57,399 nt of DNA from Desulfuromonas sp. (lineage in GTDB: Bacteria > Desulfobacterota > Desulfuromonadia > Desulfuromonadales > Geothermobacteraceae). Positions 30,615 through 42,620 of this stretch are shown here, piece after piece. Every line of letters starts with the position of its first letter. Positions within the stretch are counted from its first letter, which is position 1. The notes below the pieces were generated by a model that saw nothing but the letters and a program-made list of their open reading frames with translations, was not told where the DNA came from and ran no database searches. Location: the NCBI GenBank assembly GCA_002868905.1, contig PKUA01000049.1, forward strand, positions 1 to 57,399, given 5' to 3'. A program made the position numbers and the translations under genes.

Positions 30615-31766
30615 TTACTTCGCCATCACGAACTTGCCGTCCTTGACTTCGACGATGACCATCGAATCGACGCTGAGGCCGTTGTGGTCTTCCGGGGTAA
30701 TGTTGTAGGTGCCGGAGATGCCGACGTACCCCTTGGTGCTCTCGATCGCTTTGCGCAACGCCTCGGGCTCGGTGCCGACCTCCTTGATGGCGTCGGCGAC
30801 GATCATGATGGCGTCCCAGGCGTAGCCGGAGTGGGTGTTGATCGGGAACTGCTTGTCGTACCCCTTCTCCTTGTAAAGCTTGATGAACTCCTGGATCACC
30901 TTCTTCTGCGGGTCGCTGTCCGGCAGTTCGTCGGCAACCATCAGCTTGGTGGCCGGCATCCGGTCCCCTTCGCTGGCGGCGCCGGCCAGTTCGATGTATT
31001 TCGGGTCGGGCAGGCCGTGGCACTGGAACAGCGGCAGGTCGATGCCGAGCTGGGCCTTGTTCTTGGCGACGATGGAGCCGGCCGGCCCTATGGTCCAGGC
31101 GATCAGCGCCTGCGGCTTGAGATTTTTCGCGTTGGTCAGCTGGGCGGTCATGTCGGTGTCGCGCGTACCGAACGACTCTTCACCGAGGATCTCGATGCCG
31201 TACTGCGGGGCGAGCTTCTTCATCCAGCGCGCGCCGTCTTTGCCGAAGCCGTCAGCGGCGGTGAGCAGGGCGACCTTGGTCAGCCCTTTCTCCTTCAGGT
31301 AGATGAAGAGGCGTTCGACCGCTGTACTGGAACGCTGCGGCGATTTGAACACCCACTCGAACGGGCCGAACTTCCCACCCATGATCACCGGGTCGCCGCC
31401 GACGGTCATGAAGATCGGCGTTTTCCCCTGGTCGGCGACTTTTTTCACGTTCATGCCGGTGTCGGTCAGGGTCGGGCCGATGATCGCCGCGACCTTGTCC
31501 TTGTAGATGAACTTCTTGGCGATGGAGGCCGCCTTGGCCGGGTTCGCCTGGGTGTCGCCGACTTCGAGTTCCAGCATCTTGCCATTGATGCCACCTTCGG
31601 CGTTGATCTTGTCGACGACCATCTCGGCAACCAGCTTGGTCGGGGTACCGATAAAGGCGGCCCGGCCGGAGAGGTCGAAGAAGGCGCCGAGTTTGATGGT
31701 GTCGGCCGCCAGGGCCGGGGCGGCGCTCAGCAGCAGGCAGAGCAGGGTGACGAACATCTTGCGCAT
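30615..31766 (-). CDS. livK: LivK-like periplasmic substrate-binding protein of a branched-chain-type ABC importer
   Basis: A 383-residue protein from the ATG at 31766, with AAAGGAG 8 bases upstream. The signal peptide MRKMFVTLLCLLLSAAPALA is cut before ADTIKLG. The mature part is a type I periplasmic binding protein (IKLGAFFDLSGRAAFIGTPT) with family segments such as AIIGPTLTDTGM. It should deliver an amino acid or aromatic acid to the LivHMGF transporter. Those genes lie on the same strand but 3.2 kb upstream, beyond a histidine kinase and toxin-antitoxin genes, so livK now has its own transcript. The ligand is inferred from the neighbouring ior and paaK genes. Confidence 0.88.
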   Translation of the reverse strand: MRKMFVTLLCLLLSAAPALAADTIKLGAFFDLSGRAAFIGTPTKLVAEMVVDKINAEGGINGKMLELEVGDTQANPAKAASIAKKFIYKDKVAAIIGPTLTDTGMNVKKVADQGKTPIFMTVGGDPVIMGGKFGPFEWVFKSPQRSSTAVERLFIYLKEKGLTKVALLTAADGFGKDGARWMKKLAPQYGIEILGEESFGTRDTDMTAQLTNAKNLKPQALIAWTIGPAGSIVAKNKAQLGIDLPLFQCHGLPDPKYIELAGAASEGDRMPATKLMVADELPDSDPQKKVIQEFIKLYKEKGYDKQFPINTHSGYAWDAIMIVADAIKEVGTEPEALRKAIESTKGYVGISGTYNITPEDHNGLSVDSMVIVEVKDGKFVMAK

Positions 31767-32128
31767 GGTTGGTCTCCTTTGCATGGAATGGACATGGGGT
31801 GTGCTTCCCAGAAAACGTCAATTCGCAAAGTCTAAGGTATTGCAGGTTTTTTTTAAAGGAGAATCGGAATCGTCCACGATGTGGTGACGGGAAAGGTAAG
31901 CTGAATTCGAGGAATCAGATCGAATCAGGGCCCCCAATAATTTCTCAGATGATCTGAGAGCTCCCCTGAAAACAATTTTTGGGACACTTCCGGGGTAAAT
32001 GGGAAGTGGGCACCTGATTCTAGTAAAAATCGGTGCAAATTCGGCCATTTGATTTTCGCTTGACTTTCCCATGCCCGGCGAACAAAGTTAGACATAACTA
32101 ATCTTGTGGGTGTATTGAAAGGGCTCTG
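31767..32128. other. A+T-rich intergenic region with an inverted repeat
   Basis: This 362-base gap separates divergent livK and the histidine kinase gene and shows no supported gene. It contains an 8-bp perfect inverted repeat, TCTCAGAT (31943-31950) and ATCTGAGA (31952-31959). This sits inside an outer pair, TCAGGG (31925-31930) with CCCTGA (31964-31969). It could be an operator or a weak hairpin. Base composition shifts here from the G+C-rich neighbours to clearly A+T-richer DNA. Confidence 0.5.
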
Positions 32129-33607
32129 ATGATCCGAAAAACAAAATTGTTTCTAAATCTTCTAAGCCAAGAAACACTTTTGAGTACTATGCCGAGCGGT
32201 CTTTTTCTGGTCGACACAGAGCGTCATATAGTCTACTGGAACCCGGAGGCGGAAAAGATCACCGGTTATTCAGCAGCAGAAGCCATAGGTCGGCACTGTT
32301 CTTTTCTTGAAGGGATTGAATGCGGTAATGCCTGCAGTCTCTTTGACTCGGAGTCCCCTGATAAACCAGTTATTGGTGCCGAGTGCAATATTCGGACAAA
32401 ATCAGGTGAGAAGGTTACCATCTCCAAGAATGTCGATTTTCTTTGGCAGGACGGCCAAATTATCGGCGGCATTGAATCGTTCGTCGATATGACTCAACAG
32501 AAGAATCAGGAAGATCTCCTGCGACGGAACAGTGAGGTTCTCGAAAAGACAGTCCAAAGACGAACGCTCGCGTATCAGGAAGAAAGGAACCGGCTGCGCG
32601 AAGTTCTCGACAGCATGCCTGATCTTGCTTACATCGTAACGGCTGACTATAGAATCGATTTTCTGAATATCGCCATGGCGCAGATCGTCGGCGAAAGCAG
32701 GGGAGAGGTTTGCCATGAGGTTCTCCACAAATTACCCTCCCCCTGCCAAGACTGCCCCATGTCCAAAATCAGGCGGGGGCAAACGGTACATGAAGAGCGT
32801 TCCTTCGACGCAAAGAAGGGAACCTACGAAATCATTCACACACCTGTTTACAACCACGACGGGATAATACAGAAACTGGCAGTATGCCGGGACATAACCC
32901 AGCGCAAACGTGCGGCTGAAAAACTGCTGGAGGCAAACCGACATCTTGATGCGTTCGCCCACACAGTATCTCACGACCTCAGGTCACCTCTCACAGGTGT
33001 TTTAGGTTACACCGAACTTCTGATTGAAAAAATTCGGGCAAATTCCATGGAGGACTCTTTGCCTTTGTTGCATACAGTTAGGGATCAAAGCAAACGAATG
33101 GTTAATCTAATCGACGACCTGCTACGTTTCTCCACAGCCGGCTATCTGGATTCCGATGACCTGTCCGTCAACACGAATACCATCATCGAAGATATTCTCA
33201 AAGACAACCAGTTTGAAATTTTGGAGAAAAAAATTCGGATAACCGCCGAAAAATTGCCGTCGATTCGGGTGCCTGAGTCATTGATTTATGAGCTTTTCAG
33301 CAACCTGATCTTGAATGCAGTCCGCTATGGGTATGCGCCAGGGGGCGAGATAACTGTCACCGGCTACAGCGATGATAACAGCCAGGTCATAATTGTTCGA
33401 GACAACGGCCCCGGTATCCCGAAAAATGAGAGAGGCAGAATATTCGATGCCTTTTACCGTGGATCGACGTCCAACGACACAGAGGGGACAGGGATTGGTC
33501 TGGCAACAGTTTCGCGGATCGTCGACCGTTTTGAGGGCCAAGTCAAACTCCAGGAGACCCCTGGTGGCGGATGTACCTTCATCGTCCAATTCCCTTTATA
33601 CGGATAG
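32129..33607 (+). CDS. PAS-PAS sensor histidine kinase, orphan
   Basis: A 492-residue soluble kinase with no membrane helix. PAS1 spans about 12-122 and carries a Cys cluster (C57, C65, C69). PAS2 spans about 155-258 and carries CQDC (206-209). A HisKA domain has phospho-acceptor H282 in VSHDLRSPL. The ATPase domain has an N box (NLILNAVRYG), G1 box (DNGPGIP), F box (IFDAFYRG) and G2 box (GTGIGLATV). No response regulator is next to it. The cysteines hint at redox or metal sensing, which is inference. Codon use is A+T-richer than in the flanking genes, consistent with acquisition by transfer. Confidence 0.9.
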   Translation: MIRKTKLFLNLLSQETLLSTMPSGLFLVDTERHIVYWNPEAEKITGYSAAEAIGRHCSFLEGIECGNACSLFDSESPDKPVIGAECNIRTKSGEKVTISKNVDFLWQDGQIIGGIESFVDMTQQKNQEDLLRRNSEVLEKTVQRRTLAYQEERNRLREVLDSMPDLAYIVTADYRIDFLNIAMAQIVGESRGEVCHEVLHKLPSPCQDCPMSKIRRGQTVHEERSFDAKKGTYEIIHTPVYNHDGIIQKLAVCRDITQRKRAAEKLLEANRHLDAFAHTVSHDLRSPLTGVLGYTELLIEKIRANSMEDSLPLLHTVRDQSKRMVNLIDDLLRFSTAGYLDSDDLSVNTNTIIEDILKDNQFEILEKKIRITAEKLPSIRVPESLIYELFSNLILNAVRYGYAPGGEITVTGYSDDNSQVIIVRDNGPGIPKNERGRIFDAFYRGSTSNDTEGTGIGLATVSRIVDRFEGQVKLQETPGGGCTFIVQFPLYG

Positions 33608-33820: not shown

Positions 33821-33973
33821 TCACCAGATTTCAGTGGTCTCAAAACAGTCTCTGTGGACAATTCTCGCAACCCCTGGTGTTGACACACTCAGCGAATCAA
33901 ATATGTCTGTCAAAATCCATTTTCTGATGCAATATTCAGCCTTTGCTTTGGGGGAAAATATGATTTTGCTCAT
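33821..33973 (-). pseudogene. Remnant of a ParE toxin gene
   Basis: The ATG at 33973 overlaps the parD stop codon (ATGA), as in intact parDE operons. Translation begins MSKIIFSPKAKAEY, the typical start of ParE toxins. After about 13 residues the similarity ends, and the frame runs through a dispersed repeat to a TGA at 33821 (50 codons) with no ParE core. I read this as a toxin deleted or replaced after its N-terminus, leaving the antitoxin alone. The 213 bases from 33608 to 33820 hold no supported gene. Confidence 0.7.
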
Positions 33974-34203
33974 AAGGACAGAGACTGTTTCTTGCCTGAA
34001 ATGAAAGCTTCAATATCCAACCCTGTCGAAGGCCCAGACTTTTCTCCCTCAATTAAGGCTTGGCGTAGTTCCTCCAACTTCATGTGGTCTTTTCTGATCA
34101 GATCCCGGATGTAATCAGAGTAGTTTGCGTATCTTCCAGAATGTACACATTCTTCTACCCAAGCTTTCATTTGCTCTGGTAAAGATATATTCATAGTCGC
34201 CAT
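33970..34203 (-). CDS. parD: ParD-like antitoxin (ribbon-helix-helix), orphaned
   Basis: A 77-residue protein from the ATG at 34203, with GAAGGAG 7 bases upstream. The N-terminus (MATMNISLPEQMKAWVEE) and the SGRYANYSDYIRDLIR segment are typical of ParD/CC2985-type antitoxins: an RHH DNA-binding fold followed by a toxin-binding tail. ParD normally binds ParE and represses its own promoter. Here the overlapping parE is only a fragment, so the protein may serve as a lone repressor or as an anti-toxin against related toxins elsewhere in the genome. Confidence 0.85.
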   Translation of the reverse strand: MATMNISLPEQMKAWVEECVHSGRYANYSDYIRDLIRKDHMKLEELRQALIEGEKSGPSTGLDIEAFISGKKQSLSL

Positions 34204-34367
34204 AACTGTCTCCTTCAACTGGCAGGGTATACAAACATACTATGACAACCTTTGCCATCAAGGCGTGCATCTTAACCCATGACTCAAGACCTCGCTCCTG
34301 ACATATCCAATTTCGTGTTCCAGGGGTGTGTAATTCCTGTAAACCCTGGTCTTGACACACTGGCAAT

Positions 34368-34643
34368 TTAACGACGCCTGAGATAAATCTCTCTACGATG
34401 CCCAACCGCTAAAGCCAGAACAACAAGTTGCTGATCTTGGATTTCACAGATGACTCTGAAATCTCCTATGCGGTATCGCCATAGGCCAGCCAACTCCCCT
34501 CGCAGGGCTTCTCCAAAGTGCCTGGGGTTCTTGCAACCTTCGATTCGATCTTCAAGCCAATCGAGAAGGCGTTTTTGTACAGGCTTATCTAACTTGCGAA
34601 GTTGTTTCTCGGCATAGTCACTGACCTCAACTGTCCAGGCCAA
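34368..34643 (-). CDS. RelE/ParE-superfamily toxin
   Basis: A 91-residue protein starting MAWTVEVSDYAEKQLRKLDK and ending with GHRREIYLRRR. The middle has LWRYRIGDFRVICEI, the core strands of RelE-type mRNA interferases. The Arg in the RYRIGDFRV region and the C-terminal GHRREIY match catalytic and substrate-binding positions of RelE proteins. It would cleave mRNA on the ribosome when free of its antitoxin. It overlaps the antitoxin gene by 17 bases and follows it, the normal order. No frameshift is seen, so the module looks intact. Confidence 0.9.
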   Translation of the reverse strand: MAWTVEVSDYAEKQLRKLDKPVQKRLLDWLEDRIEGCKNPRHFGEALRGELAGLWRYRIGDFRVICEIQDQQLVVLALAVGHRREIYLRRR

Positions 34644-34839
34644 GGTCTTTCCTCAACTCTTTAATGGATTTACTGCTGCGAGTCTCTGCGAGTGCCTGCT
34701 TTGCCAGTTCAAGGTCTTCGTTGTCTTCCAGGTAGCGCACAATCGCTTCACGCACCACCGCGCTTCGATTGCTGCCTTTGGCTTTGGCGAGCAAATCAAT
34801 TTCTTGCTCTAGGTCTTTTTCCAAACGAATAGCGAGCAT
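34627..34839 (-). CDS. RHH/RelB-like antitoxin of the RelE toxin
   Basis: A 70-residue protein from the ATG at 34839, preceded by GGAGGGG. The N-terminus MLAIRLEKDLEQEIDLLAKA and the NRSAVVREAIVRYLED segment are a ribbon-helix-helix DNA-binding fold. The charged C-terminal tail (SSKSIKELRKDLGL) would wrap the toxin. It should neutralise the overlapping RelE-type toxin and repress the operon through the palindrome just upstream. Confidence 0.87.
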   Translation of the reverse strand: MLAIRLEKDLEQEIDLLAKAKGSNRSAVVREAIVRYLEDNEDLELAKQALAETRSSKSIKELRKDLGLDS

Positions 34840-34858
34840 AAGCCCCTCCACAATAGGT

Positions 34859-34998: not shown

Positions 34999-35343
34999 CT
35001 AAGAAAAAAGAGTATTTGAATCGTCTGGTGCCTCTTGCCTTGAGTCCTTTGTGTAATCCCTTTTAACCTGACATACTCTGATCCGATAATTCTTGAACAG
35101 CTGATGACGACCCTTGGACTGGGCCATGCGGTGCTCTTCAAGGGTCCGCCATTTCCTGACGGAGTCCTCATCGTCCCAGAATGACAGCGACAACAGTTTC
35201 TCTGGCTCAGTCAGGCTCTGAAATCGCTCAATGGAGACGAAGCCCGGCATTTGGGTCAAATGCTCACGCAGACCAGCGGCGATGTCCAGGTATTCCTGTT
35301 TGCCCTCTTTGGTGGGAGTCACTTCGAAAATTACCGCAATCAT
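34999..35343 (-). CDS. Antibiotic-biosynthesis-monooxygenase (ABM) fold protein
   Basis: A 114-residue protein starting MIAVIFEVTPTKEGKQEYLD, with GFVSIERFQSLTEPEKLLSL and FWDDEDSVRKWR. This is the typical ABM ferredoxin-like barrel, found in quinol or heme-modifying monooxygenases and in many uncharacterised small dimers. GGGAG precedes the ATG by 8 bases. It begins 23 bases after the livF-paaK stop on the same strand and is probably the last gene of that operon. Its role there is unknown; a quinol or aromatic substrate would fit the neighbourhood. Confidence 0.82.
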   Translation of the reverse strand: MIAVIFEVTPTKEGKQEYLDIAAGLREHLTQMPGFVSIERFQSLTEPEKLLSLSFWDDEDSVRKWRTLEEHRMAQSKGRHQLFKNYRIRVCQVKRDYTKDSRQEAPDDSNTLFS

Positions 35344-35366: not shown

Positions 35367-37454
35367 CTAGACGATCTCATCTGTCAGGCGCGTATCGAAC
35401 ACCCGCTGGCTCTTCCGCTCCGAGCGGGGCAGCTCGCCGTATTCGACCAGCTCGAGTTCGGCGGATACCAGCAGCTGTTTCTTGATCTGGTGGACCGCTT
35501 CGTGAATCAGCTCGGCGTTGCGAGTCGCAGCGACCCCCACCGCCCGTTCGACTTTCAGCAGCATGTGGTCTTTGCCGCCGGCGTCGCGGGTCAGGTGGAT
35601 CTGGTACTCCGAACCGAGGCCGGGAACGGCCGAGAGGATGGTGTCGATGCTGCTCGGGTAGATGTTGACCCCGCGGAACTTGATGGTGTCGTCGGTCCGG
35701 CCCTTGATGCGGGAGTGGCGCGGCAGCACGCTGCCGCAGGTGCAACGGCCCGGAATGATCCGGGTGATGTCGCGGGTTCGGTAGCGGAGCAGCGGCGCAC
35801 CCTCCTTGCAAAGTGTTGTCACCACCATCTCCCCCCATTCCCCTTCCGGGACCGGCTGCAGAGTCCCCGGGTCGAGGATTTCCAGCAGATAATAGTCTCC
35901 CCAGTAGTGAATGCAGTCATGCTCGCGGCACTCGATCCCGGTCCCGGGGCCGTAGAGTTCGGTCAGGCCGGTGATGTCGAACAGCTCGGCCCCGCCGAAC
36001 AGTTCGGAGATCTTCTGGCGCATGGAGCGACTGCTCCGCTCCGAGCCGTAGATGATCTTGTTGACGGCGATTTTGTCGGCGATGCCGCGCCGGTGGATCT
36101 CCTCGGCCATCAGCAGCGCCATGGAGGCGGTGGAGCAGAAGACGGTCGACTGGAAGTCGAGCAGAAACTGGATCTGCATGTCAAGGTTGCCCGGTCCGGC
36201 CGGCACTGACATGGCCCCGATCTTCTCGCAGCCGAGTTGGAACCCCATGCCGGCGGTCCAGACGCCGTAGCCGACGGCGATCTGTACCCGGTCGAGCGGC
36301 GTGACGCCGGCCATCTGGTAGCAACGGGCGAAAAAGTCGGTCCAGTCGTCGATGTCTTTCTGGGTATAGCTCAGGACCTTGCGTTTGCCGGTGGTGCCGG
36401 ACGAGGCGTGCACCCGGACGATCTGCTCGAACGGAACGGCGCGCAGCGGGAAGGGGTAGTCGTCGCGCAGGTCGTCGGCTGTGGTGAACGGGAGTTTCCG
36501 CAGGTCGTCCAGGGACTGGATCGCGTCAGGGGTGAGCCCGGCCTGTTCGAGGCGATTCCGGTAGAAAGAGGAGCCTTCGAAGGCGTGGCGGACGGTCCAC
36601 TGCAGGCCTGAAAGCTGATGCTGCTTGAGTTCGTCGTCGGTTTCAAACGTCGGCATGAAGTCGAGTTGGTGCATGTCCGGTTTCTCCAGGCGGATGTTGG
36701 TCAGGCCGGCGGCGCCGAGGCGGCTGGCGGCCGGGTTTTCATGGCTGGCGGCGCCGAGGAAGGCGGCGCGCAGGCGCGGATCGTTGAGCAGGGCCGCGCT
36801 CTCCCCCTGTTCGACGATCCGGCCGTTGGCGAGCAGGTAGGCCCGGTCCGAGGCGGAGAGGGCGCGGGCGGCGTTCTGTTCCACCAGCAGGATGGTGGTC
36901 CCTCCCCGGGCGAGTTGATGGATGATGGCGAAAATCTCGTCGGTGATCAACGGCGCCAGGCCGAGGCTCGGCTCGTCAAGCAGCAACAGGCGTGGATTGG
37001 CCATCAGGGCGCGCCCCATGGCGAGCATCTGCTGTTCTCCCCCGGAGAGGGTGCCGGCGAGCTGTTGGTGCCGCTCCTTGAGCTTCGGGAAGCGCGCGAA
37101 GACTTCCTCCAGGCGCAGTTTCTCCTCATTGCGACCGAGCTTGAGCGGGAGGGCCCCGAGTTGCAGGTTCTCGAACACCGAGAGATGGCCGAACACTTCG
37201 CGACCCTCGGGGGAGAGGGCCAGGCCGCGCCTGACCATCTGCGCCGGGCTCGTCCCGGTCACCTCCCGGCCGTCCAGGGTAATGGCCCCACCGCTCGGCT
37301 TGACCAGTCCCATCAGGCACTTGAGCAGGGTGCTTTTGCCGGCGCCGTTGGCTCCGACCAGGGCGACGGTCTGCCCGGCCGCTACATCAAGGTCAACACC
37401 GAACAGGGCCTGAGCGGCACCGTAGTGGGCTGTGAGATCACGGATCGTCAGCAT
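35367..37454 (-). CDS. Fusion of LivF (ABC ATPase) and phenylacetate-CoA ligase (PaaK)
   Basis: A single 695-residue open frame. Residues 1-235 are a complete LivF ATPase: Walker A GANGAGKST (34-42), signature LSGGE (136-140), Walker B LLLLDEP (156-162) and the usual LivF end near NDPRLRAAFLG. A linker of about 25 residues follows. Residues 261-695 are a full arylacetate-CoA ligase: P-loop SSGTTGKRK, FDITGLTELYGPG, RYRTRDIT and GRTDDTIKFRG. An internal ATG (36674, residue 261) has GGAG 9 bases upstream and could yield a separate ligase. The fusion ties import of a substrate to its CoA activation. A sequencing or assembly loss of a stop codon must be excluded. Confidence 0.85.
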   Translation of the reverse strand: MLTIRDLTAHYGAAQALFGVDLDVAAGQTVALVGANGAGKSTLLKCLMGLVKPSGGAITLDGREVTGTSPAQMVRRGLALSPEGREVFGHLSVFENLQLGALPLKLGRNEEKLRLEEVFARFPKLKERHQQLAGTLSGGEQQMLAMGRALMANPRLLLLDEPSLGLAPLITDEIFAIIHQLARGGTTILLVEQNAARALSASDRAYLLANGRIVEQGESAALLNDPRLRAAFLGAASHENPAASRLGAAGLTNIRLEKPDMHQLDFMPTFETDDELKQHQLSGLQWTVRHAFEGSSFYRNRLEQAGLTPDAIQSLDDLRKLPFTTADDLRDDYPFPLRAVPFEQIVRVHASSGTTGKRKVLSYTQKDIDDWTDFFARCYQMAGVTPLDRVQIAVGYGVWTAGMGFQLGCEKIGAMSVPAGPGNLDMQIQFLLDFQSTVFCSTASMALLMAEEIHRRGIADKIAVNKIIYGSERSSRSMRQKISELFGGAELFDITGLTELYGPGTGIECREHDCIHYWGDYYLLEILDPGTLQPVPEGEWGEMVVTTLCKEGAPLLRYRTRDITRIIPGRCTCGSVLPRHSRIKGRTDDTIKFRGVNIYPSSIDTILSAVPGLGSEYQIHLTRDAGGKDHMLLKVERAVGVAATRNAELIHEAVHQIKKQLLVSAELELVEYGELPRSERKSQRVFDTRLTDEIV

Positions 37455-38218
37455 CAGGCGACGGCCTCCGTTCGTCCCAGGTAGGCTTCAAGCACCAGCG
37501 GATTCCGTCTGACCTCCTCCGGGGAGCCCATGGCGATGCAGCGTCCGCTGTCAAGCACCACCACCCGGTCGGCAATGGTCATGACCAGTTCCATGTCGTG
37601 CTCCACCAGCAGCATGGTATGTCCGGCGCGACGCAACAGGTTCAGCTGTTCCCCGACGGCGGCGGTCTCCTCGGCGTTGAGCCCGGCGACCGGTTCGTCG
37701 AGCAGGATCAGTTCCGGTTTGCCGACCGTGGCGCGGGCGAGTTCGACCCGTTTCTTGTCGCCGTAGGCGAGGACACCGGCCGGCCAGTTCGCCTTGTCGG
37801 CCAGACCGAAACGGTCGAGGGCTTCGAGGGCTCTGAGCTTGAGGCTCCTCTCCCTGTGGCGCAGGTAGGGGAGTCTGAACATCGCCATCACCAGCGATTT
37901 TCCCCCTTCGCAGGTCAACCCGGTCAGCACGTTGTCGAGGACCGTCAGGCGGGGGAACAGTTTCAGGTTTTGAAAGGTGCGGGCGATGCCGAGTCGGGCA
38001 ATTTGATGCGGGGGGAGAGTTTCAATCTGAATGTCTCGGAAGCGGATGCGGCCGGACGTCGTCTGCAGGACGCCGGTCATGCAGTTGATCAGGGTCGATT
38101 TGCCGGCGCCGTTCGGTCCGATCAGGGCGGTCAGCTTACCTTGTGGGATGTCGAACGAGACATCGCTCAGAGCCGGCAGCCCGCCGAAGTTCTTGGAGAC
38201 GTTCTCAAGCCGCAGCAT
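37454..38218 (-). CDS. livG: LivG-type ABC transporter ATPase
   Basis: A 254-residue ATPase from the ATG at 38218, with GGAGAGG upstream; a TTG seven codons earlier is less likely. It has Walker A GPNGAGKST, the long LivG insertion (TRTFQNLKLFPRLTVLDNV), a degenerate LivG-type signature region (AYGDKKRVELARA) and Walker B LILLDEPVAGLN. It works with LivH, LivM and LivF. Its stop overlaps the livF start (TGATG) and its start overlaps the livM end by 14 bases, so the set is translationally coupled. Confidence 0.93.
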   Translation of the reverse strand: MLRLENVSKNFGGLPALSDVSFDIPQGKLTALIGPNGAGKSTLINCMTGVLQTTSGRIRFRDIQIETLPPHQIARLGIARTFQNLKLFPRLTVLDNVLTGLTCEGGKSLVMAMFRLPYLRHRERSLKLRALEALDRFGLADKANWPAGVLAYGDKKRVELARATVGKPELILLDEPVAGLNAEETAAVGEQLNLLRRAGHTMLLVEHDMELVMTIADRVVVLDSGRCIAMGSPEEVRRNPLVLEAYLGRTEAVA

Positions 38219-39203
38219 CTTGACCTCTCCGCAGGGCAAGACGGGTTCGGACCAGGTCGAACAGCCCGGTCACCAGCCCCTGGGGCAGAAACATCAGCAC
38301 CAGCACCAGAATGCCGCCATGGACAAAATCCTTGTAAGTTTCGAACAGGTCCATCCACTCAGGCAGCATGGTGATCAAAGCGGCCCCGAGCAGGGAGCCC
38401 CAGATCGAGCCCATCCCCCCGATCACCACCATGATGACCATGTCGGTCGAAACGAAGATGTTGAACGAGTCGGGGCTGACGAACGAATAGGTGTGGGCGA
38501 ACAGGCTTCCGGCCAGGGAGGCGAGGACGGCGGAAAGGACGAAGACCTTGATCTTGGCGTTGCGGGTGTTGACGCCGAGGGCGGCGGCCGCTGTCTCGTC
38601 TCCGGCCAGGGCCGCAAGGCCACGACCGACCCCGCTCCTGACCAGGTTGAGACAGAGCAGCAGGGAGAGCAGGGCGAAGCCCCAGAGCAGGTAATGCAGG
38701 CGGAACTCGTCGTAAAACTCGAAATCGCCGATGGCGAGATAGGGGATGCCGTAAAAGCCACTGGGGCCGCCGGTCACCTCGTCCCACTGCAGCAGGATGG
38801 TATGCAGAACGAAGTTGAGGCCGAGGGTCGCCATGGCGAGGTAGTGGCCTGCGAGGCGCAGGACCGGGATACCGATCACCAGGGCGACCAGGGCGACCAG
38901 GAAGGCGACCAGCAGCATGGCCAGCCAGGGGTTGATCCCGAAATTGACGGTGGCGATGGCCGACCCATAGGCGCCGAGGCCGTAGAAGGCGGCATGACCG
39001 AGGGAGATCTGACCGGCGTAGCCGATGAACAGGTTGAGCCCGAGCACCACCACCACATGCAGGGCGATCAGGTTGGTTAACCCGAGGGTGTACGGGTTGG
39101 AGGTGACCAGTGGCCAACAGAAAATCGCCGTCGACAATAGCGTCACGGTCAGCCCTGTCCGGTGCAGGTAGAGGAAATAGAGGATTTTCTGTTTAGCGGT
39201 CAT
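38205..39203 (-). CDS. livM: LivM-type ABC permease
   Basis: A 332-residue inner-membrane permease with about nine hydrophobic helices. The family segments GLNLFIGYAGQISLGHAAFYGLGAY and VVIGGMGSIWGSLLGA are clear. It pairs with LivH to form the channel for amino acids or related acids. The ribosome site before its ATG is poor, and a pair of palindromic elements lies just upstream between iorB and livM. Expression of livM may therefore differ from that of the upstream ior genes. Confidence 0.93.
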   Translation of the reverse strand: MTAKQKILYFLYLHRTGLTVTLLSTAIFCWPLVTSNPYTLGLTNLIALHVVVVLGLNLFIGYAGQISLGHAAFYGLGAYGSAIATVNFGINPWLAMLLVAFLVALVALVIGIPVLRLAGHYLAMATLGLNFVLHTILLQWDEVTGGPSGFYGIPYLAIGDFEFYDEFRLHYLLWGFALLSLLLCLNLVRSGVGRGLAALAGDETAAAALGVNTRNAKIKVFVLSAVLASLAGSLFAHTYSFVSPDSFNIFVSTDMVIMVVIGGMGSIWGSLLGAALITMLPEWMDLFETYKDFVHGGILVLVLMFLPQGLVTGLFDLVRTRLALRRGQDAAA

Positions 39204-39231: not shown

Positions 39232-39350
39232 GTAGAGACGCCCCAGCGGGGCGTCTTGATTGTTGTGAAACGTGATGTTTATGAGACGCCCCAGCGGGGC
39301 GTCTCTACGGGTGTGCGTCCATGCAGAGACGTAGCATGCTACGTCTCTAC
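39232..39350. repeat. Cluster of three palindromic elements between iorB and livM
   Basis: Two copies of AGACGCCCC-AGC-GGGGCGTCT (39236-39256 and 39283-39305) are nested in an outer inverted repeat GTAGAGACG...CGTCTCTAC. A third element, AGAGACGTAGCATGCTACGTCTCT without a loop (39325-39348), is a 24-base perfect palindrome that reaches the iorB stop codon. They are mobile-looking intergenic repeats of the REP type. As RNA they would form stable hairpins between two halves of the operon. Confidence 0.85.
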
Positions 39351-39856
39351 GCCTGCTGTGACAATCCCCGTTGAAACGCAGTTAGATTCTGCTCAACGAA
39401 TTTGGCCGGCGCGAGCTGGCGGATGGCCGTTTCGCATTCCTCGGCTGAGCAGAACAGAATCCCCTGTTTGACGGCTAGCCCGAGCAGAACCAGGTTGGCG
39501 AGGACGGCGCTGCCGAGGTCCCGGGCGATGCCGGAGGCGTCAATCCGCTCTCCAGGGCCCGGTGCCGTCGCGTTGACGGCGAGTCGACCGTTGGTTTTCA
39601 GCAGCCCCTGGTGAACCTCCAGGTTGGCCTCCCAGAGCAGCAGCCCCGTATCGGCCTGGCCGGTCCGAATCAGCGGGCTGGCGAAGTCACCGACCTTGAT
39701 GGTGGAGAGCACGGTTCCGCCCCGCTGGGCCATACCGTGAGTTTCGGCCGTCAGCACCGGCAGTTGCCGGTTGACCGCCACCTGGGCGATGACCCGGGTG
39801 AGAAACAGCACTCCCTGGCCGCCGATGCCGCTGACGATGATCTGCTGCTTCATCAT
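39347..39856 (-). CDS. iorB: IorB, indolepyruvate ferredoxin oxidoreductase beta subunit
   Basis: A 169-residue subunit with the gamma-domain signature of 2-oxoacid oxidoreductases (IIVSGIGGQGVLFLTRVIAQ, then ETHGMAQRGGTVLS). With IorA it oxidatively decarboxylates arylpyruvates to aryl-acetyl-CoA and reduces ferredoxin, during aromatic amino-acid breakdown. The start overlaps the iorA stop, and GGAGG lies 5 bases upstream. Its end touches a palindromic repeat. Confidence 0.94.
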   Translation of the reverse strand: MMKQQIIVSGIGGQGVLFLTRVIAQVAVNRQLPVLTAETHGMAQRGGTVLSTIKVGDFASPLIRTGQADTGLLLWEANLEVHQGLLKTNGRLAVNATAPGPGERIDASGIARDLGSAVLANLVLLGLAVKQGILFCSAEECETAIRQLAPAKFVEQNLTAFQRGLSQQA

Positions 39857-41676
39857 GAATCCTCCTTGACGATGGCATCAACCGGGCAGACCGGGATGCA
39901 GACGCCGCAGCCGATGCAGCGGTCCCGGTTGGCCACCGCCTTGCCGGTTTCCGCATCCATTTGCAGCGCCGGGCACTCGAAAGCATCGACACACTTGCGG
40001 CAGCCGATACAGCGTTCGTCGATCGTGACCCGGTAGGCCGGTTGGGAGGCCCGGACCTCCCGGTCCATGATGCAGCCGTGGCGTGATATCAACACCGCGA
40101 CCCCGCCATCGTCGCTACGGATAAAGTCATCGGCTCGTTTCAGCAAGGCTTCAAACGGCTCGGTGTCGTACGGATCGCAGACTTCGAGGAAATCGACACC
40201 GCACGATTTGACCAGCGGTTCGATCGGGATCGCCTTGGTTTTCCCACCGCCTGCCGCGATACCGAGGTGAGGCACCGGCTGCCCACCGGTCATCGCCGTG
40301 GTGGCGTTGTCGAGGATGACGACGATGATGCGGGCCTGCTGGATGACCGCGTTGATCAGGGCCGGGATGCCGGCGTGGAAGAAGGTCGAGTCGCCGATGG
40401 TGACGACGATTGTCGGCACCTCTCCATCATCCTGGGCGTAGGCCTGGTAGAAGCCGGCTCCCTGGCTGATACAGGCCCCCATGCAGTGCACGGTGTTGAC
40501 CGCGCCGAGGTTCATGCCGAGGGTGTAGCAGCCGATGTCGGAGGGGAAGATGCCGTGCGGGAAGCACTTCTTGATGCTGTAGAACGCGGCACGGTGAGGA
40601 CAGCCGGGGCAAAGCGAGGGGCGTTGTCCCCGCCGTTCGGCAGGCGCGGCCTCCGGCATCTTCAATTCCAGGAACTCGGCGAGGGCGGTATGGATGACGT
40701 CCGGGGTCAGCTCTCCTTCCCGCGGCACGTCGCCGGTCTGTTTGCCGACCGCGCCCGGGTGGGCGAGCTGCAGCTCGATCACCGGGTAGGTCTCCTCCAG
40801 CAGAAGGATACGGTCGTAATCGTCGTGGAGTCGACGGCAAAATTCCGGGTTGAGCGGATAGGGCATGAGCACTTTGAACAGGTCACAGCAGCCGGTCAGG
40901 TCGAGTTCATCGAGCAGGTCGACCAGGTGTCCGTAGACGATCCCCGAGGCAACCAGAGCAGTCCTCGGCCGGGTTCCGTCCCCAGCCGTCTTCTCTGGCT
41001 GGAACGGCTCTTCGGTCGCGATCTGCTCCAGGTTGGCGTTCAGCTTGCGGTGCAGGGCAGGGAGGAAGGCCGGCGTGGCGGCCCAGCGGGTCGGGTCCTT
41101 GCGGAAGTCGGCCGATCGCTTCAGGGTGACTGGCGGCTGCAGTTCGACGTTCTGGCGCGAATGGCAGATGCGGGTGGTCGGTCGCAGCACGACATTGACC
41201 TCGTATTTCTCCGACAGCTCGAAGGCGAGAGGCACCAGCCGTTTCGCTTCGGCCGGGCTGGTCGGATCGAGGACGGGAACCCGGGCCTGCAGGCAGAACA
41301 GGCGGGTGTCCTGCTCGTTCTGGGAGCTGTGGGGGCCGGGATCGTCGGCGACGATGGTCAGCATCCCTCCCTTGATCCCGAGATAGGCGGTCCGCATGAA
41401 CGGGTCGGCGGCGACATTCAGGCCGACCTGTTTCATCACGGCGACCGAACGCTTGCCGGTGTAGCTGGCGGCGAGGGCAACCTCGAAGGCGATCTTCTCG
41501 TTGACCGACCACTCGATGTGGAGCGGCTCGGCCGCCTGGTCCCGGCGGTCGATGACCGCCTGGAGAATTTCGGTGGAGGGGGTGCCGGGGTAGGCGGCGG
41601 CGATCTGGCATCCCGCCTCGATCAGCCCCTGGCCGATCGCTTCGTTTCCCATTAAAAGCTGGATCGTTTCACTCAT
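39853..41676 (-). CDS. iorA: IorA, indolepyruvate ferredoxin oxidoreductase alpha subunit
   Basis: About 607 residues from the ATG at 41676, with AAGGA 5 bases upstream; an ATG two codons earlier is possible. It contains the pyrimidine-binding and transketolase-like domains at the start (MGNEAIGQGLIEAGCQIAAA, PGTPSTE). The TPP/Mg motif GDSTFFHAG is near residue 426. A C-terminal ferredoxin domain has two 4Fe-4S clusters (CIGCRKCVDAFECP, then CIGCGVCIPVCP). It is the catalytic subunit converting indolepyruvate or phenylpyruvate to the acyl-CoA. It is embedded in the liv operon between livH and iorB. Confidence 0.95.
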   Translation of the reverse strand: MSETIQLLMGNEAIGQGLIEAGCQIAAAYPGTPSTEILQAVIDRRDQAAEPLHIEWSVNEKIAFEVALAASYTGKRSVAVMKQVGLNVAADPFMRTAYLGIKGGMLTIVADDPGPHSSQNEQDTRLFCLQARVPVLDPTSPAEAKRLVPLAFELSEKYEVNVVLRPTTRICHSRQNVELQPPVTLKRSADFRKDPTRWAATPAFLPALHRKLNANLEQIATEEPFQPEKTAGDGTRPRTALVASGIVYGHLVDLLDELDLTGCCDLFKVLMPYPLNPEFCRRLHDDYDRILLLEETYPVIELQLAHPGAVGKQTGDVPREGELTPDVIHTALAEFLELKMPEAAPAERRGQRPSLCPGCPHRAAFYSIKKCFPHGIFPSDIGCYTLGMNLGAVNTVHCMGACISQGAGFYQAYAQDDGEVPTIVVTIGDSTFFHAGIPALINAVIQQARIIVVILDNATTAMTGGQPVPHLGIAAGGGKTKAIPIEPLVKSCGVDFLEVCDPYDTEPFEALLKRADDFIRSDDGGVAVLISRHGCIMDREVRASQPAYRVTIDERCIGCRKCVDAFECPALQMDAETGKAVANRDRCIGCGVCIPVCPVDAIVKEDS

Positions 41677-41696
41677 ATGCATCCTTTTAAATCAAA

Positions 41697-41753: not shown

Positions 41754-42620
41754 TTATTTCCCCAACAACCCCTTCGGGCGGATAAACAGCACCAGCAGCA
41801 GGACGACGAAGGCGACGACGTCCTTATAGGCGCTGGAGAGGTAGCCGGCCGACAACGACTCGAGCAGACCAAGCCCGAGCCCGCCGAGGATCGCCCCCGG
41901 AAAGGAGCCGAAGCCACCGAGAATCGCGGCGGCGAAGCCCTTCAAGCCGAGCAGGACGCCGACATCGTAGTTCAGGGTGGTGATCGGCGTCACCAGAACC
42001 CCGGCCAGGCCGCCGAGAGAACCGGCAATGGCGTAGCTGGTCAGCCTGACTCTGCCGGCCGGGATGCCGACGACGGCGGCGGCCGTCGGGTTCGAGGCGA
42101 CGGCCCGCATCGCGAGGCCGAGGGGGGTCCGGTAAAAAAACCAGGTCAGCAGGGCGATGGCGATGACTGTCAGTAGCAGAATCCACAACGCCTGCGGCAG
42201 GACCGACGCGCCCAACAAATTGACAGGGGTATCGGAGGTCAGCGGCGGTAGGGCCATCCGATTCTTCCCCCACACGAGCTTGATAATGCCCCGCAGGATA
42301 ATCGACAGGCCGACGGTCAGGAAGATCAGCACCAGGTGATGATTGGAACGGGCCGGGCGCAGCCCGACTCTCTCCACCAGCATCGCAATCAGGGCGACTC
42401 CGGCTACGGCGAGCAACAGGCCGGGAACCGTCGGCAGGCCGATGGCAAACAGGGCCGAGAACATCAGCATTCCACCCAGGGTGACAAAATCGACCTGAAC
42501 GAAGTTGACGATTCCCATGGTGTTGTTTACCACGCAGAAACCGAGAGCGATCAGTGCGTAAATCGCTCCTCCGGTCAGGCCGGAAAAGGTGAATTGCAGA
42601 AAATCCTGGAAGGGGTTCAA
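41754..42620 (-). CDS. livH: LivH-type ABC permease
   Basis: A 288-residue permease with about eight hydrophobic helices. It has the family start (TFSGLTGGAIYALIALGFCV), GLAMRAVASNPTAAAVVGI and GGFGSFPGAILGGLGLGLLE. The start is a TTG at 42620 with GGGAG 8 bases upstream; no ATG fits. It is the first gene of the minus-strand liv-ior-paaK operon. LivH normally pairs with LivM, which here lies after iorAB, so the transporter genes flank the oxidoreductase genes. Confidence 0.92.
   Translation of the reverse strand: MNPFQDFLQFTFSGLTGGAIYALIALGFCVVNNTMGIVNFVQVDFVTLGGMLMFSALFAIGLPTVPGLLLAVAGVALIAMLVERVGLRPARSNHHLVLIFLTVGLSIILRGIIKLVWGKNRMALPPLTSDTPVNLLGASVLPQALWILLLTVIAIALLTWFFYRTPLGLAMRAVASNPTAAAVVGIPAGRVRLTSYAIAGSLGGLAGVLVTPITTLNYDVGVLLGLKGFAAAILGGFGSFPGAILGGLGLGLLESLSAGYLSSAYKDVVAFVVLLLVLFIRPKGLLGK

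Follow-up and report, generated by a model that had tools for sequence, protein, structure and literature searches.

In FadD-type vectorial acylation, an imported acid is trapped inside the cell as its CoA ester by a ligase that is not known to be linked covalently to an ABC motor, and CoA trapping of imported acids has usually been inferred from separate proteins. CoA ligases of the PaaK type work as dimers, and the solved PaaK-type entries contain two or more chains. On the uptake side, Liv-type substrate-binding proteins (SBPs) of Rhodopseudomonas palustris are described as binding aromatic acids (PMC3223731). In Bacteroides, a biosynthetic role has been proposed for an indolepyruvate oxidoreductase (IOR) found beside an AMP-forming arylacetate-CoA ligase, ligases that are described as favoring CoA-ester synthesis (PMC13285125). 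Here, the same kinds of components are found in a window of 57,399 nucleotides, the whole stretch of DNA analyzed (contig PKUA01000049.1 of a Desulfuromonas sp. assembly), where an ABC importer ATPase and a CoA ligase are encoded as one protein.

The LivF-PaaK fusion gene lies on the minus strand at positions 35367 to 37454 and comprises 695 codons plus a stop; its translation gave 695 residues, a terminal stop, and zero internal stops. Its ATG (37452-37454) shares one base with the stop codon of livG. Residues 1 to 234 (36753-37454, minus) make up a LivF-type ABC ATPase with an ABC_tran domain (PF00005) at residues 19 to 163 (110.6 bits against a Pfam cut-off of 25), and the core residues of Walker A, the signature, and Walker B were invariant across 43 aligned fusions. 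The PaaK-type AMP-forming CoA ligase runs from Met261 (35367-36674, minus; 435 residues if started there), with AMP-binding (PF00501) at residues 340 to 546 (38.3 bits; cut-off, 29.9) and AMP-binding_C_2 (PF14535) at residues 595 to 689 (87.8 bits; cut-off, 25). The preliminary description had named the two halves LivF and arylacetate-CoA ligase. These labels hold at the family level, but both halves fall below the curated NCBIfam cut-offs, with 245.9 of 441 bits for the LivF equivalog (NF008626) and 391.2 of 646.3 bits for the phenylacetate-CoA ligase equivalog (TIGR02155). The source genome (84 contigs, 3.3 Mb) holds a single copy of the fusion, its nearest paralogues being ligases at 42% and 38% identity and an ATPase at 50%. 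Just 3' of the fusion gene, a 114-amino-acid ABM-domain protein is encoded at 34999-35343 (minus).

The fusion belongs to an operon on the minus strand with the order LivH-IorA-IorB-LivM-LivG-LivF/PaaK. Its other members are the permease genes livH (41754-42620; NF008011, 151.9 of 379 bits) and livM (38205-39203; NF008450, 182.8 of 366 bits), the gene for the second ABC ATPase, livG (37454-38239; NF008449, 255.9 of 362 bits), and the indolepyruvate oxidoreductase genes iorA (indolepyruvate:ferredoxin oxidoreductase alpha-like; 39853-41682; TIGR03336, 631.3 of 650.9 bits) and iorB (beta-like; 39347-39856; NF004916, 190 of 227 bits), all of them scoring below the NCBIfam curated cut-offs for the named equivalogs. 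A Liv-type SBP (30615-31784, minus; PF13458) is encoded about 3.6 kb downstream of the fusion. Between the two lie a ParD-like antitoxin as well as a ParE-like toxin and its RHH partner (33970-34218 and 34368-34851, minus) and, in the same block but on the opposite strand, a PAS histidine kinase (32129-33607). This toxin-antitoxin/kinase block was probably inserted, since the SBP directly follows the fusion in the close relative L038; the two also adjoin directly at other loci. For the count of operon context, 65 rows were used, with 1 of the 66 fused loci excluded because it had no LivF match. Upstream sequence of 5 kb or more was available for 14 fused loci, of which 12 had LivG, LivM, and LivH and 10 had IorA and IorB. 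For 28 fused loci the downstream sequence reached 2.5 kb or more, and in 19 of these the fusion was followed by an SBP with 45% identity or higher. The fused gene stands apart from livGHM in L192 and L214; in L192 (6607-7917 and 4337-6595), it is transcribed divergently from the gene for a regulator that has HTH_3 and Cupin_2 domains and whose N-terminal half is unassigned.

Across the order, 56 of 136 genomes matched the fusion protein at an E value of 1e-180 or better. The match was full length and without stops in 45 of them, the source genome included, partial in 7, and restricted to the ligase in 4 (G014, G055, G053, and G007). Six of the seven partial matches reach a contig end (G097, G101, G061, G094, G048, and G062); in the seventh, G115, a contig end cuts the ligase and the first 54 LivF residues lie in another frame. 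At this last locus (L218; G115:C268, 2139-3768) the junction is open, and the change of frame is a LivF-internal frameshift or an assembly error. A wider sample, drawn evenly as 395 genomes of the phylum and searched at a threshold of 1e-170, gave 146 matching genomes: 17 fused, 2 in which the match spans separate genes with a stop between them (G188 and G208), and 127 in which only the ligase matched, starting at residue 233 or later. The 17 fused genomes include 4 of the order, 11 of family f30 (G368 partial), 1 of f65, and 1 of f108, the 13 outside the order thus being spread over three families. Loci assigned to other families by lineage or by record name include L055/L139 (G467, f65), L056 (in a record named Desulfomicrobiaceae), and L150 (G416, f108); transfer or a binning error may account for L055 and L056, both at 78% identity.

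Junctions were read in 66 distinct fused loci, L066 and L104 having been dropped as contig-edge false positives. Seven of the 66 were left out of the codon analysis as not full-length, which gave 59 full-length fusions with the window's own included; L059, among the 59, is cut by a contig end at residue 689. All 59 distinct genes are open through the junction, and the other 58 share 66 to 87% identity with the fusion in the window. They come from isolates (Malonomonas rubra DSM 5091, L040; Desulfuromusa kysingii DSM 7343, L052) and MAGs, and the fusion also occurs in genomes assembled into one to six contigs (G023, G043, G052, G041, G082, G022, and G125). That LivF continues into the ligase without a stop, as the preliminary description had reported from the window, is therefore borne out by the open frame and by the same fusion in many relatives. 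Neither a stop or frameshift at the junction nor a set of relatives with separate genes only was found.

The ATPase and the ligase are joined by a linker whose residues 243 to 258 (A-S-R-L-G-A-A-G-L-T-N-I-R-L-E-K; 36681-36728, minus) are the most conserved of any 16-residue window of the protein. The mean top-residue frequency over the 59 proteins was 97% here, compared to 80% for residues 1 to 234 and 86% for residues 276 to 689; no other of the 680 windows matched it, and variable stretches flank it on both sides. Third codon positions vary across most of the stretch, and the constraint therefore acts mainly at the protein level. A degenerate DNA pattern for L-T-N-I-R-L-E-K was found in 12 of the 395 phylum genomes, once in each and all 12 times inside the fused gene, whereas the same pattern reversed matched 1 of the 395. 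The exact linker motif is absent from 5 of the 17 fused phylum genomes (G179, G273, G389, G465, and G416), and L150, at 66 to 67% identity, still has SRLG..G.TN..LE. The 26-residue linker peptide had no match in the PDB at an E value of 10. An AlphaFold monomer model, for which we selected 43 rows from the 59 full-length fusions, had a mean pLDDT of 72.9 and a poor overall pTM (0.43), with a linker pLDDT of <50 and no docking visible. The low values at residues 229 to 264 decide nothing, because conserved active-site loops such as 338 to 362 also fall below 50.

The preliminary description had further taken an internal ATG with a GGAG site as a sign that free ligase may be made alongside the fusion. 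The Shine-Dalgarno-like GGAG (36684-36687, minus) lies 9 bases 5' of the ATG of Met261 (36672-36674, minus) and was found in 50 of the 59 full-length fusions. The other nine have GGAA (L141 and L146), GGTG (L143, L144, and L148), GGAC (L060), or CGAG (L150, L179, and L180). In L143, L144, and L148, Val replaces Glu257 and is always encoded by GTG, turning GGAG into GGTGA, which presumably may still pair with a longer anti-Shine-Dalgarno tail. Column 261 holds ATG in 54 fusions and TTG in 3, the latter being close relatives that may represent one event, and holds neither in 2, with an ATG one codon further upstream in L146 and no start codon at all in L150; residues 260 and 262 are variable.

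Codon usage around this site was compared with like codons elsewhere in the gene by counting synonymous changes on a tree built without the linker. At column 257, 53 of the 55 Glu codons are GAG, with 2 synonymous changes, compared to 10 to 19 at 27 other conserved Glu columns, and Lys258 showed 5, compared to 11 to 21 at 11 other Lys columns. At Leu256, xTG is kept, 56 of the 59 codons end in G, and the 2 changes are the fewest of 56 Leu columns (median, 11), with Leu columns 32 and 447 nearly as constrained (3 and 4 changes). In a scan of synonymous variation over 57 of the 59 rows, two near-copies having been removed, codons 252 to 258 were the least variable among 259 stretches scored. Because the Glu and Lys codons here change synonymously far less than like codons elsewhere in the gene, the codon record indicates that the internal GGAG...ATG is under RNA-level selection. 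Strong pairing to the anti-Shine-Dalgarno sequence failed as proof of the internal start, since pairing at Met261 is ordinary (rank 33 of 685 columns, with Met143 and Met543 stronger); the codon constraint serves instead. Unfused ligases of the same clade start at the equivalent residue or within about four codons of it, and the internal start would therefore yield a normal free enzyme. It is thus very probable that a free ligase is made as well as the fusion; of the earlier suggestion, the internal start has held up as a selected site, and support for its product is evolutionary.

On a quick tree of 138 ligases (SH-aLRT support, no bootstrap), all 62 fused ligases fell within one clade of 73 (SH-aLRT, 100) that also contains 11 nested unfused ligases. 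Fused and unfused states require at least 7 changes on this tree, 3 of them forced by well-supported branches. The unfused outgroups L087, L107, and L151/L194 have the order LivH-LivM-LivG-LivF-PaaK-SBP with livF immediately 5' of paaK, the livF match ending 23 to 53 bases 5' of paaK, and have a separate stop and Shine-Dalgarno-like site. As these outgroups keep livF beside paaK and unfused rows nest within the clade, one fusion of neighboring genes followed by several losses is the likely history, the tree by itself being no proof of a single origin. The 11 unfused ligases inside the clade further imply that the fusion is dispensable in some lineages. Two of the losses have left traces. In unfused G014 (L027/L197), what remains of the junction is out of frame by one inserted base but agrees in 30 of 38 columns and has GGAG and ATG intact; this remnant scored 21, whereas the best of 1000 shuffles scored 12 and five other unfused junctions scored -1 to 6. 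No liv or ior match was found in the 17 kb of sequence covered at the G014 ligase locus. L063 has lost the livF end and the frame and kept the last linker residues and the ATG. In L195, paaK comes directly after livG, with no livF match in the 18 kb of sequence covered at this locus; this is possibly a one-ATPase importer, or its LivF may be located elsewhere.

We propose that translation from the first ATG would yield a LivF ATPase carrying the CoA ligase at its C terminus, which would pair with LivG beneath the LivH/LivM permease and so set the ligase at the importer's cytoplasmic mouth. Translation from the internal Shine-Dalgarno site and Met261 would yield free ligase, possibly pairing with the tethered copy. 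Arylacetate captured by the SBP would be imported and then converted to arylacetyl-CoA with ATP, and IorAB would most likely carboxylate arylacetyl-CoA to arylpyruvate for aromatic amino acid synthesis. We infer that both proteins are made, that the ligase is tethered and pairs, and which substrate and direction apply, and we consider a two-product gene for transporter-tethered and free ligase, with a role in arylacetate-type uptake, to be somewhat favored overall. The preliminary description had also put forward vectorial capture, in which import is physically coupled to CoA activation; such coupling is plausible and fits both the operon and the conserved linker. More tentatively, we speculate that the linker could be a docking element holding the ligase at the permease mouth, with the ligase from the nested start completing tethered dimers, so that import and CoA trapping would form one step.

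An assembly or sequencing artefact at the junction is vanishingly improbable: no support for one was found, and it is ruled out by the fused relatives, with 59 distinct open full-length fusions from many assemblies. The fusion is almost certainly real and selected, and these comparisons indicate that the gene is old and has been retained by selection. It could be argued that only the fusion is made and that GGAG and ATG reflect the protein's need for Leu-Glu-Lys and Met, which would agree with the ordinary pairing strength, the nine fusions that lack GGAG, and the missing start in L150. However, synonymous variation at Glu257 and Lys258 is much more restricted than at like codons elsewhere, Met261 is held between variable neighbors, the TTG that replaces it in three loci is also a start codon, and G014 retains the site after loss of the fusion, all of which makes a fusion-only gene quite improbable. 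Less improbable, but still unlikely, is that the fusion is the by-product of a stop lost between adjacent genes, with the free ligase doing most of the work and the tether at most fixing stoichiometry. The position of livF directly 5' of paaK in unfused outgroups, the conserved internal start, the loss of the fusion in some descendants, and the fact that unfused ligases are common in related bacteria would all be expected from such a history. Yet an idle joint would hardly be the most conserved stretch of the protein, the fusion persists down to 66% identity, also at loci where the gene no longer lies in the liv operon, and L150 remains fused without an internal start. We lean toward a tether that matters for coupling, alongside the free enzyme.

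As for the substrate, the solved relatives nearest to the window SBP by sequence (best 5 of 27 matched) are 3sg0, 7ylt, 4dqd, 3uk0, and 3tx6; amino-acid SBPs also match it, more weakly. One member of the 3tx6 group, 4fb4, is a caffeic-acid SBP, and its class is described as usually tied to aromatic-acid uptake (PMC10374108). The nearest solved relative of the ligase by sequence is 4r1l (BT_0428 of Bacteroides thetaiotaomicron; E = 9.5e-106). Benzoyl-CoA degradation was considered as the purpose of the system and rejected: TIGR03200, a marker of benzoyl-CoA ring opening, was not associated with the fusion. Within the order it matched 8 of the 52 genomes with the fusion and 13 of the remaining 84; many of these genomes are incomplete, and among the 8 matches that in G071 is partial and does not reach the cut-off. 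The marker had no match in the source genome or in 43 other fused genomes of the 52, some of them incomplete. Taken together, the operon, the SBP relatives, the ligase relatives, and the lack of a TIGR03200 match in the source genome favor a system that takes up arylacetates and captures them as CoA esters for assimilation, with an arylacetate-type substrate being probable and a biosynthetic direction carrying a modest preference. Were the pathway to run the other way, aromatic amino acids or arylpyruvates would be imported, IorAB would oxidize arylpyruvate to arylacetyl-CoA, and the ligase would work in reverse or recycle arylacetate. Desulfococcus multivorans is described as forming IorAB on phenylpyruvate (PMC5109826), and IOR has been tied to phenylalanine breakdown in B. 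thetaiotaomicron (cited in PMC13285125), both in line with this reverse direction. It sits poorly, however, with the preference of AMP-forming ligases for CoA-ester synthesis (PMC13285125), and a fusion of importer and ligase would be most sensible if the ligase acts on the imported compound; we regard the reverse direction as rather doubtful. The importer-ligase, whose carriers are a group of sediment bacteria, would also have a bearing on the reuse by anaerobes of arylacetates that fermenters leave behind.

No paper on the fusion or its operon was found in the open-licence literature. In Bacteroides, as here, an AMP-forming arylacetate-CoA ligase adjoins IOR, but an importer fusion is not part of what the relevant portion of that paper describes (PMC13285125). 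Cas11b corresponds to part of a larger protein and is additionally translated from an internal in-frame start (PMC11899642), and the free ligase would likewise be encoded within a longer gene; the proteins are unrelated, and it is codon constraint that points to the internal start here. The N-terminal half resembles the Liv/HAAT-type ATPase LivF in domain, motifs, and operon place after livG (best fold match, 1ji0, at 50% identity), but the fusion protein carries a second enzyme and stays below the NCBIfam LivF cut-off. Similarly, the ligase has the same domain set as PaaK enzymes (BT_0428, 4r1l; PaaK1, 2y27/2y4n; PaaK2, 2y4o) at about 40% identity over some 413 columns, but it is joined to an ABC ATPase and lies below the TIGR02155 cut-off. 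With FadD-type vectorial acylation, the fusion shares the idea of trapping, a likeness of concept, and a conserved covalent importer-ligase would be a naturally occurring and testable example of physical coupling between transport and activation, one that includes its own route to the free enzyme.
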